Assembly (NCBI GenBank): GCA_020722945.1
Contig: DYJV01000047.1
Span: forward strand, 1-17,914
DNA length: 17,914 nt
Direction of reading: 5' to 3'
From: Candidatus Methylomirabilis sp.
GTDB lineage: Bacteria; DYJV01
Under the pieces are notes generated by a model that was not told where the DNA came from, ran no database searches, and saw nothing but the letters and a program-made list of their open reading frames with translations. Of the stretch, positions 4,427-16,283 are shown piece by piece. Position 1 is the first letter of the stretch, and each line of letters opens with the position of its first letter. The position numbers were made by a program, and so were the translations under genes.

Positions 4427-4482
4427 ATTGTTGATAATATTCCTATCACAAACAAACCAAAAAAAAAAATAATATCAATTGT

Positions 4483-4634
4483 TAAAATTAGACAGGGATT
4501 TATCAGGAGCCAGGAATATATTTCTCAAGAATATATCCCTGGCGACGAAAGATCTTTCCATGCTGCAGATTTAAGGTCTGTAGTATGAACCTTTGTTAAT
4601 AGGTAGAAGTATCTATTAACGGAAATAGATCGGA
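4483..4634 (+). ncRNA. Element A2: TnpB C-terminal vestige plus omega-RNA-like scaffold, identical to A1
   Basis: Base-for-base identical to 757-908 (offset 3726), including the LDRDLSGARN coding vestige, the three hairpins and the GGAAATAGATCGGA tail. The tail is followed by a second partial copy, AAATAGATCGGA, a direct duplication of 11 bp. Here the element does not lead into a gene start; it lies in the gap after the glycosyltransferase. The putative guide starts at 4635 and would read into the duplicated tail. Confidence 0.75.
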
Positions 4635-4748
4635 AATAGATCGGAGAACTCTGCTTAGCTGGGAAAATAGCGGCAAGCTTGTTTCCTAAATGTTGCTGAT
4701 TCAATGAATTGTAAATTTATTATGCTAACTGGTAAATACAATATTACT
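4635..4748 (+). other. Spacer between elements A2 and D2, with one stem-loop
   Basis: No gene is supported here. GGAAAATAGC (4662-4671) can pair with GCTTGTTTCC (4677-4686) around a 5-nt loop, with two mismatches. The sequence from CTCTGCTTAGC onward could be the 5' part of the D-type omega-RNA, since D2 follows, but this part is not found before D1. The rest, to 4748, is AT-rich and featureless. Confidence 0.4.
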
Positions 4749-4798
4749 ATGTCTTCCAGCATTGAAAACCTCTCGCTTTAGCCGTGGGAAGTAGTCAC
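4749..4798 (+). ncRNA. Element D2: omega-RNA-like 3' terminal hairpin
   Basis: Second copy of D1: the first 21 bases are identical, followed by CTCTCGCTTTAGCCGTGGGAAG and ending GTAGTCAC. That ending is characteristic of IS200/IS605 right ends. The sequence directly downstream (4799 onward), where a guide would lie, contains 20 bases identical to an internal part of the intact gene at 5332-5351. Confidence 0.55.
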
Positions 4799-4802
4799 AA
4801 TA

Positions 4803-4886
4803 GATGGCCCTGTTAATACATGTTTTATTATTCATTTGATTTGTGATATTGTAGAAAGAGAGTTATCAAAAAAATATGGCCAATAA
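4803..4886 (+). pseudogene. 3' remnant of a paralogue of the 4876 gene
   Basis: Bases 4803-4822 are identical to 5332-5351. The encoded DGPVNTCFII matches DGPVNTCFIV near the C-terminus of the downstream protein, after which the two diverge. The remnant runs on to a TAA at 4884-4886, overlapping the start of the intact gene. Everything upstream of the match is replaced by element D2. This is a partial gene duplication whose left border is an omega-RNA-like end. Confidence 0.6.
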
Positions 4887-5454
4887 ATACTTTGTTTTGC
4901 CAGATGAAACTAAAGTGTTTCTTATGCAATTGCCAGTTGAATGTGAAACCGCTGCAATTGCTACATGTACACAAGTTAACTATGATATAGTAAATGAAGT
5001 TATGCACAGAATTAGAAAACTTCCTGATGTTATTGAAAATCCTATTTATGGTAATCTTTTAACTATATTATATACTTTATTAAAACTTGGGTTTTGGAAA
5101 AAAGAATTAACATTAACACAGTTTATTAATAAAGAAGCAGTACCAAATAAAACAATGATGTTAGTTAAGCGAAATGTAACACAGCAACATTGGGTTGTGT
5201 TTGCTGGAATAACAACTGTTCAAGATAATAGCGAAATTAATAGAACTATAGATTTGTATCACTTTCATTGGGGTTACGAATTGAAACCAAAAGCACTAAC
5301 AAGAGAACAAGTTATTGATTATTTTACAACGGATGGCCCTGTTAATACATGCTTTATTGTCTATAAATGTAATATAATTAAAAAGTTAACCGAATCGCTC
5401 AAAATATGGGTTTTGGCTAAAATAAATTGTATAAAGGGTTTGTTTAGAAAGTGA
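4876..5454 (+). CDS. Putative papain/C39-like cysteine peptidase-fold protein
   Basis: 192 residues. The N-terminus has VECETAAIATCTQVNYDIV, similar to the Cys-containing helix (C-x-x-A-A-x-A) that starts the papain-like C39 fold. QQHWVVFAG near residue 105 would supply the histidine strand, and DLYHFHWG near residue 128 a later acidic or aromatic strand. The exact nucleophile is uncertain: the cysteine precedes ETAA, and another follows at ATC. Such proteins occur in phages and may process proteins or cleave host peptides; none of this is shown here. The C-terminus is hydrophobic and basic. The upstream AGAGAG is a weak ribosome binding site. A paralogue remnant overlaps its start. Confidence 0.5.
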   Translation: MANKYFVLPDETKVFLMQLPVECETAAIATCTQVNYDIVNEVMHRIRKLPDVIENPIYGNLLTILYTLLKLGFWKKELTLTQFINKEAVPNKTMMLVKRNVTQQHWVVFAGITTVQDNSEINRTIDLYHFHWGYELKPKALTREQVIDYFTTDGPVNTCFIVYKCNIIKKLTESLKIWVLAKINCIKGLFRK

Positions 5455-5523: not shown

Positions 5524-5841
5524 ATGAGCTTTCCAAAAGAAAATTTTCGTGATGATGAAGAATTCGTCAAAATAGTAGAAAGACAAGCAGAACAGAAAGT
5601 TCTGTTAAACGTGCTTGATAAGAAAGTAGATCAAGGATTTAATGAAATAAAACAAACTCTTGAAAAACTTGGTAATGATTTTCATTATACTCAGAATAAC
5701 TGTAAGAATTTTGTACCAAAAGATTCAATTAATAATAAATCTTTTTTAATGAAGTTAAACCCAAATATTGTTAAGTTCTTGTTTGTTATAATTATATTGA
5801 TTATTGGTAAATTGTTAGGCGTAGAGATACCAATTAAGTGA
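5524..5841 (+). CDS. XhlA-like small membrane protein (possible holin or lysis accessory)
   Basis: 105 residues. Residues 14-50 form a likely coiled coil (FVKIVERQAEQKVLLNVLDK...), followed by a polar linker. One membrane helix lies near residues 83-100 (IVKFLFVIIILIIGKLLG), with a very short tail. This coiled coil plus C-terminal helix matches XhlA-type phage lysis proteins in size and layout. It is the first gene after the 5440 promoter, and two genes downstream is a lysozyme, so a role in membrane opening or as holin partner is plausible. A spanin-like or other membrane role cannot be ruled out. No sequence motif proves the family. Confidence 0.55.
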   Translation: MSFPKENFRDDEEFVKIVERQAEQKVLLNVLDKKVDQGFNEIKQTLEKLGNDFHYTQNNCKNFVPKDSINNKSFLMKLNPNIVKFLFVIIILIIGKLLGVEIPIK

Positions 5842-11694: not shown

Positions 11695-11777
11695 ACCAGT
11701 GTGGTGGAATGGAATACACATCTGACTTAAACTTAGACGACTATATCCCATGATGACTTTAAGTCCTTTCACTGGTA
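11695..11777 (+). tRNA. tRNA-Leu(UAA), T-arm poorly paired
   Basis: The acceptor arm ACCAGTG/CACTGGT pairs fully. The D-arm GTG...CAC with GGTGGAAT matches the tRNA-Leu signature. The anticodon arm TCTGA-CTTAAAC-TTAGA gives anticodon UAA. The variable arm is long, as in class II tRNAs, and the 83-nt length fits. The T-arm is abnormal: ATGAC does not pair well with CCTTT around TTTAAGT. No CCA is encoded. It is either a degenerate tRNA or one with a weak T-arm. It would read UUA, a common codon here. Confidence 0.65.
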
Positions 11778-11784
11778 TTTTAAT

Positions 11785-11858
11785 GGAAGTATAGCTCAGA
11801 CGGTTAGAGCAATGTGCTTATAACGCAGAGGTCGTTGGTTCAACTCCAACTACTTCCA
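11785..11858 (+). tRNA. tRNA-Ile(UAU)
   Basis: A full cloverleaf of 74 nt: acceptor GGAAGTA/TACTTCC, D-arm GCTC/GAGC, anticodon loop CTTATAA with anticodon UAU, T-arm GTTGG-TTCAACT-CCAAC. The CCA is not encoded. It reads AUA, a codon rare in many hosts but frequent in these AT-rich phage genes. Confidence 0.92.
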
Positions 11859-11899
11859 TTGATAGGATTACTTATAGCTGTGCTATGGTGTCCTACAAT

Positions 11900-14026: not shown

Positions 14027-14980
14027 ATGAGTGAAGTTGTAACTGTTTTTGAAAAGCTAGGTATTGAATACAAAGAACATAAAGCAGGAACAGAATTACA
14101 GTTTAAATGTGTTCACCCACAACATAATGATAAAAATCCATCTGCGTTTATAAATACAATAACTGGCAGATGGTTATGTTTTTCTTGTGGAAGAAAAGGC
14201 TCGCTATTAACTATAATAAAACTAGTTAAAGGTGAAGATGTAGATGTTGGTTCATTTCTATCACAAACAGAACTATTACAAATGAAAATATTTGGTGTTT
14301 ATAAACAGAGTGTTAATAATATATTAAAATATGACAATATATTAAAATTCCAAGAATCAATAGAATATGAATCATCTTTTTTTATACCATTAGAATCGAA
14401 TAAAGAGGCGTTGGATTATGTTTTAAAGCGTGGGATTAATCTGAATACCATAAATCAATTTGGATTGAAATTTGCCTCATCTGGTAACTACAGAAATAGG
14501 ATTATTATCCCATACTATAAAAACGAACAATTGATAGGTTTTAATTCCAGAACTATAGACCCAAATGAAAGAATTAGATACTTGTATTATTTAAACCAAG
14601 AAGCATTTAAAGGATTTATATACAATATAAATAATATCATAAACTATAACTATTGTATTGTTGTAGAAGGCCCATTTGATTTGTTGTATTTACATTCAAT
14701 TGGTATTAAAAATGTTATATCAACGTTAAATACAAATGTATCATTTGACCATGCAAAAGAACTTATTAGATTTAAAAAGATAGTATTTATGTTCGATAAT
14801 GACATAGAGTCAAAAGCTGGTTATAAAGCCATGATTAAAGCGTCTGATATAATTTATTCAATTACTAACAATTCAAAAATATTTTATGCAGAATTACCAG
14901 AAGGGAAAGACCCAAACTCTTGTTCTATTGATGAAATTAAACTATCACTTAGTAAGATATACAAAATAGAAAGCAAATAA
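14027..14980 (+). CDS. dnaG: DNA primase, DnaG type
   Basis: 317 residues. The N-terminal zinc site is C28-x4-H33 ... C51-x2-C54 (CVHPQH...WLCFSCGRKGS), the CHC2 domain. The central RNA-polymerase domain includes LLNTINQFGLKFA-type and IIIPYYKNEQLIGFNSR motifs. The Toprim motif shows E214 in IVVEGPFD, and D257/D259 in VFMFDNDIESKAG. There is no helicase-binding C-terminal domain, so it is shorter than bacterial DnaG. It makes primers at the phage fork with the DnaB-type helicase. No clear ribosome binding site precedes ATG 14027; the GGAG of element C is too far away (18 nt), so translation may need another signal. Confidence 0.95.
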   Translation: MSEVVTVFEKLGIEYKEHKAGTELQFKCVHPQHNDKNPSAFINTITGRWLCFSCGRKGSLLTIIKLVKGEDVDVGSFLSQTELLQMKIFGVYKQSVNNILKYDNILKFQESIEYESSFFIPLESNKEALDYVLKRGINLNTINQFGLKFASSGNYRNRIIIPYYKNEQLIGFNSRTIDPNERIRYLYYLNQEAFKGFIYNINNIINYNYCIVVEGPFDLLYLHSIGIKNVISTLNTNVSFDHAKELIRFKKIVFMFDNDIESKAGYKAMIKASDIIYSITNNSKIFYAELPEGKDPNSCSIDEIKLSLSKIYKIESK

Positions 14981-15010
14981 AAAAGGCCATCAAAATTGAT
15001 GGCCTTTTTT
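14981..15010. terminator. Bidirectional intrinsic terminator between convergent operons
   Basis: AAAAGGCCATCAA pairs with TTGATGGCCTTTT around an AA loop, with an A-run on one side and a T-run on the other, so it works on both strands. It separates the plus-strand replication block from the minus-strand lysis and tail block. Confidence 0.9.
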
Positions 15011-15053: not shown

Positions 15054-15317
15054 CTAAAATTTAAAAGTTTTTTCAACATAAATACGATGATTGTTTTTGA
15101 AGTCTGTGTTAACATAAGCCTTAAATGAAGCTCTTTTAAAAGTGGTACCATATCTGATATCTAATTTACCATCAGTGACACTTTTAAATGCCTTAAAATG
15201 GAAGCCTTCTTTATCACAGTGACTCAAATCTTTTCGGAATTTATCTAGCAGAGTTGTAGTTTTGAATAGATTATCAAAAGCTATAGCTTCTAATAACTCT
15301 GCTATTTCGTTAAAGGG
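15054..15317 (-). CDS. -1 frame extension of the holin gene (frameshift product)
   Basis: In the -1 frame, starting at the CCCTTTA site (15311-15317), an open frame of 85 codons runs to TAG at 15054-15056. It has no ATG, GTG or plausible start, and an in-frame TAA lies just upstream of the slip site, so it can only be translated by frameshifting. The fused product would be about 232 residues (147 from the holin plus 85). The extension is polar and aromatic (LLEAIAFDNLFKTTTLLDKF, DIRYGTTFKRASFKAYV), and not recognised. It ends 44 bp before the bidirectional terminator. The alternative is a recent frameshift mutation in a once longer gene. Confidence 0.6.
   Translation of the reverse strand, partial: PFNEIAELLEAIAFDNLFKTTTLLDKFRKDLSHCDKEGFHFKAFKSVTDGKLDIRYGTTFKRASFKAYVNTDFKNNHRIYVEKTFKF
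15268..15317 (-). promoter_or_regulatory. Programmed -1 ribosomal frameshift signal
   Basis: On the minus strand: slippery heptamer C-CCT-TTA (15311-15317, read in the holin frame), a 10-nt spacer (15301-15310), then a stem-loop (15268-15300) with 15 base pairs, two G-U pairs and one bulged G, around a TATA-rich loop. The holin TAG stop (15302-15304) lies within the spacer. Heptamer, spacer and structure all match the X-XXY-YYZ rule. Confidence 0.7.
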
Positions 15318-15751
15318 AAATTCTTAACAAACCCCAACTTTTCTTTAGCGTAATCAATTATATACTTCTGGACAAGATTTTTAACAAATACTTCAAGTCC
15401 TTCACCTAAGAAATACTTAGTAATTGTTGGTATTTCTGTTTTTAATGTTGATATTACATTTTTTGTAACATCTTCAACTATTTTAGCAACTTCATCATTT
15501 GTTACAACACCATCAGCAAGTGCAGCTTGGGCATCTTTTGAAAGAGTATTAAATGCGTTTCCTGAAAGAATAGCAGTAACCATTTTCATTTTTTCAATAG
15601 CATCAAAAACACGCTGACTAATTTTGTTACCTTTGTTTTTTTCAGTCCAAGTTGAAAGAACGCTAGAAAGATACCATACAATAACAACAAATCCACCAAT
15701 ACCAATAAACAAACCACCAATTTTCAACACATTTAGAATAGTTTCAGTCAT
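15302..15751 (-). CDS. Holin (LL-H-like, one membrane helix), 0-frame product
   Basis: 149 residues. One membrane helix near residues 8-32 (VLKIGGLFIGIGGFVVIVWYL), followed by a long helical, acidic domain (AIEKMKMVTAILSG, DAQAALADGVVTNDEV). This matches holin families with an N-terminal helix and a long cytoplasmic coil. It overlaps the amidase stop by 8 bp and has its own AGGAG, so the pair is a holin-endolysin cassette. The holin makes membrane holes that free the endolysin. A -1 frameshift near its end would give a longer form, which could act as an inhibitor or timer of lysis, as dual-product holins do; that role is inference. Confidence 0.65.
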   Translation of the reverse strand: MTETILNVLKIGGLFIGIGGFVVIVWYLSSVLSTWTEKNKGNKISQRVFDAIEKMKMVTAILSGNAFNTLSKDAQAALADGVVTNDEVAKIVEDVTKNVISTLKTEIPTITKYFLGEGLEVFVKNLVQKYIIDYAKEKLGFVKNFPLTK

Positions 15752-16283
15752 ATTTTACTCCTGTTCTTGACTGGATTTTCCGTATCATATTTGTAAGATG
15801 ATGACCCGGACATAAAGTTAATTTTAAATCACAATGATTAAAAATACAAGCAGGAATATTCATGTGTGGATATTTATTTTTTATATATTTCATCAATAAT
15901 AAAAAAGAATGTATTTGTTCTCTTTTTGGTTCTTCAACATTAAAATTACCAAATATCATAATACCTATACTATGATTATTATGTGAATCACAGTGATAAC
16001 CAGCAGTACCAAGTGGCCTACCTTCATAAACGTCACCATTTGGTGCTATAACAAAATGATATTTTATATCAATCGTTCCTAATTGTTTAATATGTTTTTG
16101 TTGAAGTGCACGTAATGTTTTTATACCTTTAAATAAGTGAGAACGCTTCTTTTTGGCATAAATACTTTTAAAACAATAACTATGAACTATAATTTTTTCC
16201 GGAAATATATTAAAATATGGTTTATTTGGTTTATAATTAGACCATTCTTGATATTTAATTATTTTAAGTTCATTGTTTTGCAT
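15744..16283 (-). CDS. N-acetylmuramoyl-L-alanine amidase endolysin (PGRP/Amidase_2)
   Basis: 179 residues, mostly the single catalytic domain. IIVHSYC gives zinc ligand H34, YHFVIAPNGDVYEGRP carries the catalytic tyrosine Y75, NNHSIGIMIFGNF is the central strand, and HCDLKLTLCPGHH gives H150 and C158. This is the T7-lysozyme/PGRP zinc set. It cleaves the bond between MurNAc and the stem peptide. There is no signal peptide or cell-wall-binding domain, as in many endolysins of Gram-negative phages. It sits upstream of the holin gene. A second lysin, of glycosidase type, is encoded at 6210. Confidence 0.92.
   Translation of the reverse strand: MQNNELKIIKYQEWSNYKPNKPYFNIFPEKIIVHSYCFKSIYAKKKRSHLFKGIKTLRALQQKHIKQLGTIDIKYHFVIAPNGDVYEGRPLGTAGYHCDSHNNHSIGIMIFGNFNVEEPKREQIHSFLLLMKYIKNKYPHMNIPACIFNHCDLKLTLCPGHHLTNMIRKIQSRTGVKYD

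Follow-up and report, generated by a model that had tools for sequence, protein, structure and literature searches.

A probable programmed -1 ribosomal frameshift near the end of a phage gene for a putatively membrane-anchored lysis-region protein

A phage gene found on a contig from a Candidatus Methylomirabilis sp. assembly very probably contains a canonical programmed -1 ribosomal frameshift signal, which would join its 149-codon reading frame to a further 85 codons. It is encoded by the minus strand of the window (the whole stretch of DNA analysed, 17,914 nucleotides) and its sole relative in a scan of IMG/VR is carried by the viral contig IMGVR_UViG_3300028388_003030 (hereafter L003). That slippage itself occurs is inferred from a slippery heptamer, its phase, a downstream stem, the conservation of this arrangement and coding selection in two frames.

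The 0-frame ORF (15302..15751, minus strand) comprises 149 codons and encodes a protein of 149 aa (16.5 kDa). Its 3' end reads TTC-CCT-TTA-ACG-AAA-TAG, in which the heptamer CCCTTTA (15317-15311, minus) stands in the -1 phase (C_CCT_TTA), as the sequence-only reading of this DNA had stated, and ends 6 nt before the 0-frame TAG (15302..15304, minus). The -1 frame extension (15054..15311, minus) is open for 85 codons up to a stop at 15056-15054, again in agreement with that reading. A -1 shift at CCCTTTA is predicted to give a fusion of 232 aa (about 26.2 kDa), the junction of which is bridged by the tryptic peptide NFPLNEIAELLEAIAFDNLFK. Upstream, a TAA (15324..15326, minus) that is present in L003 as well terminates the -1 frame, so that in both phages the shift is confined to about 20 nt before the 0-frame TAG. 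Within this overlap of the two frames CCCTTTA, a heptamer of the X_XXY_YYZ type in the -1 phase, is the only in-phase heptamer common to both phages. A second in-phase heptamer, TTTCCCT, overlaps it in the window and was set aside, L003 having TATCCCT at this place. A genetic code in which TAG is read as an amino acid was ruled out, as the 0 frame contains many further stops.

In E. coli, C_CC.U_UU.A shifts above 0.10% without a stimulator, and stimulatory structures are generally found 5-8 nt downstream of the heptamer (PMC4066793). CCCTTTA is not among the strongest E. coli shift motifs. Here the heptamer is followed by a spacer of 6 nt (ACGAAA; 15305..15310, minus), not of 10 nt as first described, and then by a stem that opens at the TAG itself, the stop codon supplying its first three bases (UAGCAGAGUU pairs with AACUCUGCUA). 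The basal stem is formed by a 5' arm, TAGCAGAGTT (15295..15304, minus), and a 3' arm, AACTCTGCTA (15246..15255, minus), and has 10 bp in the window and 11 bp in L003. A second helix lies within the loop in the window, where the minimum free energy structure has 19 bp altogether; the 15-bp stem originally proposed corresponds to neither count. The inner part of the loop adopts another fold in L003, so that the two phages have just the basal stem in common.

The 71 nt on the 3' side of the heptamer fold with -19.9 and -20.2 kcal/mol in the two phages. When this region was recoded synonymously, preserving the peptide and following the codon usage of the phage itself, none of 2000 recodings folded as well in either phage, and against dinucleotide shuffles the z-scores of the stem were -4.5 and -4.3. 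A pseudoknot was considered by eye and is not supported. Both arms are invariant in L003 rather than compensated, so this one homologue provides no covariation. The run of identity around the signal is not exceptional between the window and L003 (it is reached by 7639 of 20000 codon shuffles), and synonymous-site conservation there is not significant (P = 0.09). Support for the structure comes from the energy and position of the stem, and not from tests of primary-sequence conservation.

Across 21 ORFs of the window there are 42 heptamers of the X_XXY_YYZ type in phase (Y being A or T, and Z any base but G), four of them within 15 nt of a gene end, so a heptamer by itself would mean little. 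CCCTTTA is the only one of the 42 at which the -1 frame continues for more than 3 codons past the 0-frame stop (81 codons). Taken with a stem that surpasses all 2000 recodings and with its retention in L003, this upholds the earlier judgement that a chance coincidence of these features is improbable.

The match to the protein predicted from L003 covers residues 1-232, running through the frame break that both phages have, with 78% identity over all 232 residues, and the DNA aligns without gaps over 698 nt (548 identities). The heptamer, spacer, TAG, both arms of the basal stem and the frame break are identical in the two phages. Between them dS is about 1, and dN/dS is 0.137 for the upstream half in frame 0 and 0.108 for the extension in the -1 frame. 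In the other two frames the extension gives dN/dS values of 0.99 and 2.3, with many stops in both, and its differences are distributed 16/6/29 over the three codon positions of the -1 frame. As both halves are under purifying selection at a dS of about 1, both halves and the break between them have been maintained, the arrangement being conserved with coding selection in both frames in one homologue. The comparison thus lends good support to the programmed -1 frameshift predicted from the window. The sequence-only reading had advised looking for the signal in homologues and had held that one with a single intact frame would speak against it; the only homologue found, L003, has the same broken arrangement.

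The frameshift gene is the last in its same-strand gene run. It overlaps by 8 nt the upstream gene (15744..16283, minus), which encodes an endolysin-like Amidase_2 protein (PF01510), and the order amidase, frameshift gene and convergent primase is common to the window and L003. An intrinsic-terminator-like hairpin (14979..15010, minus) is located between the frameshift gene and the primase gene; it sits beyond the extension, not beyond the 0-frame stop. Hydropathy reveals one N-terminal hydrophobic segment in the 149-aa protein, within residues 4-36, and the several lysines that follow it suggest, by the positive-inside rule, a cytoplasmic location for the remainder of the protein. With a pI of 9.3, the extension is basic. 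Only low-confidence structure predictions were obtained from two sequences (mean pLDDT 48.5 and 51.5), and a helix-helix-four-strand pattern seen for the extension in such a model is tentative. A sequence search of the PDB gave nothing significant.

The gene had been labelled a holin, and dual-product timing of lysis had been proposed on that ground. The claim that it encodes a holin, with the frameshifted product acting as an antiholin or as a variant that times lysis, concerns function and is compatible with frameshifting; we regard it as possible, though not the likelier outcome. The overlap with the amidase gene points this way, as does the N-terminal segment, a holin needing at least one transmembrane segment, which is indicated here by hydropathy alone. 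The best holin match, that of the L003 protein to PHROG 36209 (E 0.029), is non-significant and a lead only. However, neither half of the protein has a significant match to any family, holin families included, in Pfam, PHROGs or NCBIfam, and a small protein bearing a hydrophobic stretch at its C-terminal end, encoded at 5524-5841 two genes upstream of a T4-type lysozyme gene (PF00959; 6201-6674), could equally be a holin. The lysozyme is a second possible lysin, and both of these genes are also present in L003. Known dual-product holins use two start codons and not frameshifting. The label of holin, drawn from the hydrophobic segment and adjacency to the amidase, is not established; the evidence takes the description no further than a membrane-anchored protein encoded in the lysis region.

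Alternatively, coupled re-initiation might produce the extension as a protein in its own right, for example from the ATA that shares bases with the TAG (ATAG). The stop/ATA overlap occurs in both phages, as with coupled genes, and the extension of L003 contains a TTG, six codons in. However, AUA is a very rare start codon, a Shine-Dalgarno site is not evident, and re-initiation would not explain why a heptamer in the right phase is followed by a stem at a suitable distance. The extension was first described as devoid of start codons, which is correct for ATG and GTG in the window but overlooks one TTG about 29 codons in; as the TTG positions differ between the two phages, no ATG, GTG or TTG stands at a conserved place. 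Two cistrons are accordingly quite unlikely. Least credible of all is that the gene once had a single frame and was broken by an error of sequencing or assembly or inactivated by a recent frameshift mutation. A single-base change could produce such an arrangement in one sequence, but an independent contig at a dS of about 1 has its break at the identical position, with purifying selection on both halves. Short of both contigs sharing the same error, this argues strongly against an error, a recent mutation or a dead gene.

No further homologue was detected in GenBank phages, in the genome contigs, in 192 genomes, in the phylum of the assembly (two genomes), in plasmids (queried with the 0-frame part only) or in the rest of the viral contigs, to which two DNA patterns and additional queries with peptides, primase and amidase were applied. 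The phage L013, which is more distant, has a related primase and amidase (37% identity); these two genes are directly convergent and the frameshift gene is absent between them. Beside the amidase gene of L013 (8853-9315) are two ORFs overlapping in different frames, one of which encodes an N-terminal hydrophobic segment and a coiled coil; the pair are possibly embedded spanins (Rz/Rz1-like).

Several other features of the window and its assembly were observed. On another contig of the assembly, L002 (G000:C166), an isolated fragment of 66 nt (1501-1566) has 91% identity to the frameshift gene at codons about 22-44; next to it are a palindrome and an IS605-like end. A long intergenic stretch of the window (4480-4840) ends in GCTTTAGCCGTGGGAAGTAGTCAC, common (23/24) to the same contig C166, and we take this to resemble the end of an IS200/IS605-type element. 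It is followed by GATGGCCCTGTTAATACATG..., which looks like a duplicated piece of the 3' end of the gene at 4876-5454. By eye, the ORF at 273-1412 of L002 has a dUTPase-like end and a front like an inserted LAGLIDADG-type (intein/homing endonuclease) stretch. At 11695-11859 of the window ARAGORN calls a tRNA-Tyr gene whose anticodon, AUA, is unusual; Rfam gives a second, weaker tRNA-like match just before it.

The -1 shift that is widely conserved among tailed phages is that of the tail chaperones (PMC5009743; PMC10885494). Of one set of 2476 frameshifted genes in SEA-PHAGES genomes, 2397 were tail chaperones and the other 79 hypothetical (PMC10885494). The present case resembles gpG/gpGT of long-tailed phages such as lambda in that a -1 slip close to the 3' end of the gene would yield a minor, C-terminally extended form. 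In contrast, gpG/gpGT are soluble and encoded just before the tape-measure gene, whereas the protein described here has a putative membrane anchor and its gene adjoins that of an amidase; no sequence relation was detected between them. The gene does not belong with the G/GT tail assembly chaperones, having an amidase and a primase gene as neighbours and encoding an N-terminal hydrophobic segment. The -1 signals of the IS3 family likewise combine an X_XXY_YYZ heptamer with a downstream structure at 5-8 nt, but the heptamer (CCCUUUA) and the kind of gene are different here. Dual-start holins (lambda S105/S107) are alike in that two forms of a lysis-region membrane protein would be made in a fixed ratio; the lambda forms differ N-terminally, by start codon, whereas the putative forms here differ C-terminally and the role as a holin is itself only putative. 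Titles and abstract openings of open-access papers that mention both holins and frameshifting yielded no description of a frameshift in a holin or of a -1 frameshift signal in a phage lysis-region membrane protein, which does not prove that none exists.

The mechanism proposed is that ribosomes translating the mRNA of the membrane-anchored 149-aa protein would reach C_CCU_UUA and meet a stable stem 6 nt downstream. A fraction of them would slip tandemly by -1, bypass the UAG and append 85 residues, giving a minor 232-aa long form alongside the short form. The membrane anchor would be common to both, and the conserved basic C-terminal domain presumably confined to the long form. We suggest, tentatively, that two forms of a lysis-region membrane protein, encoded in an operon shared with the amidase, may thereby be held at a fixed ratio, and that the long form may act on the short form as a modulator or bind a partner. 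More doubtful is the fuller proposal that this is a holin or other lysis effector of an undescribed phage group, with two C-terminally different forms whose ratio, fixed by -1 frameshifting, sets or gates lysis.

The signal is exact and testable. Gene callers would miss the 85 conserved codons of the extension, and a conserved signal of this type in a lysis-region membrane protein would show a device of tail chaperones serving another purpose.
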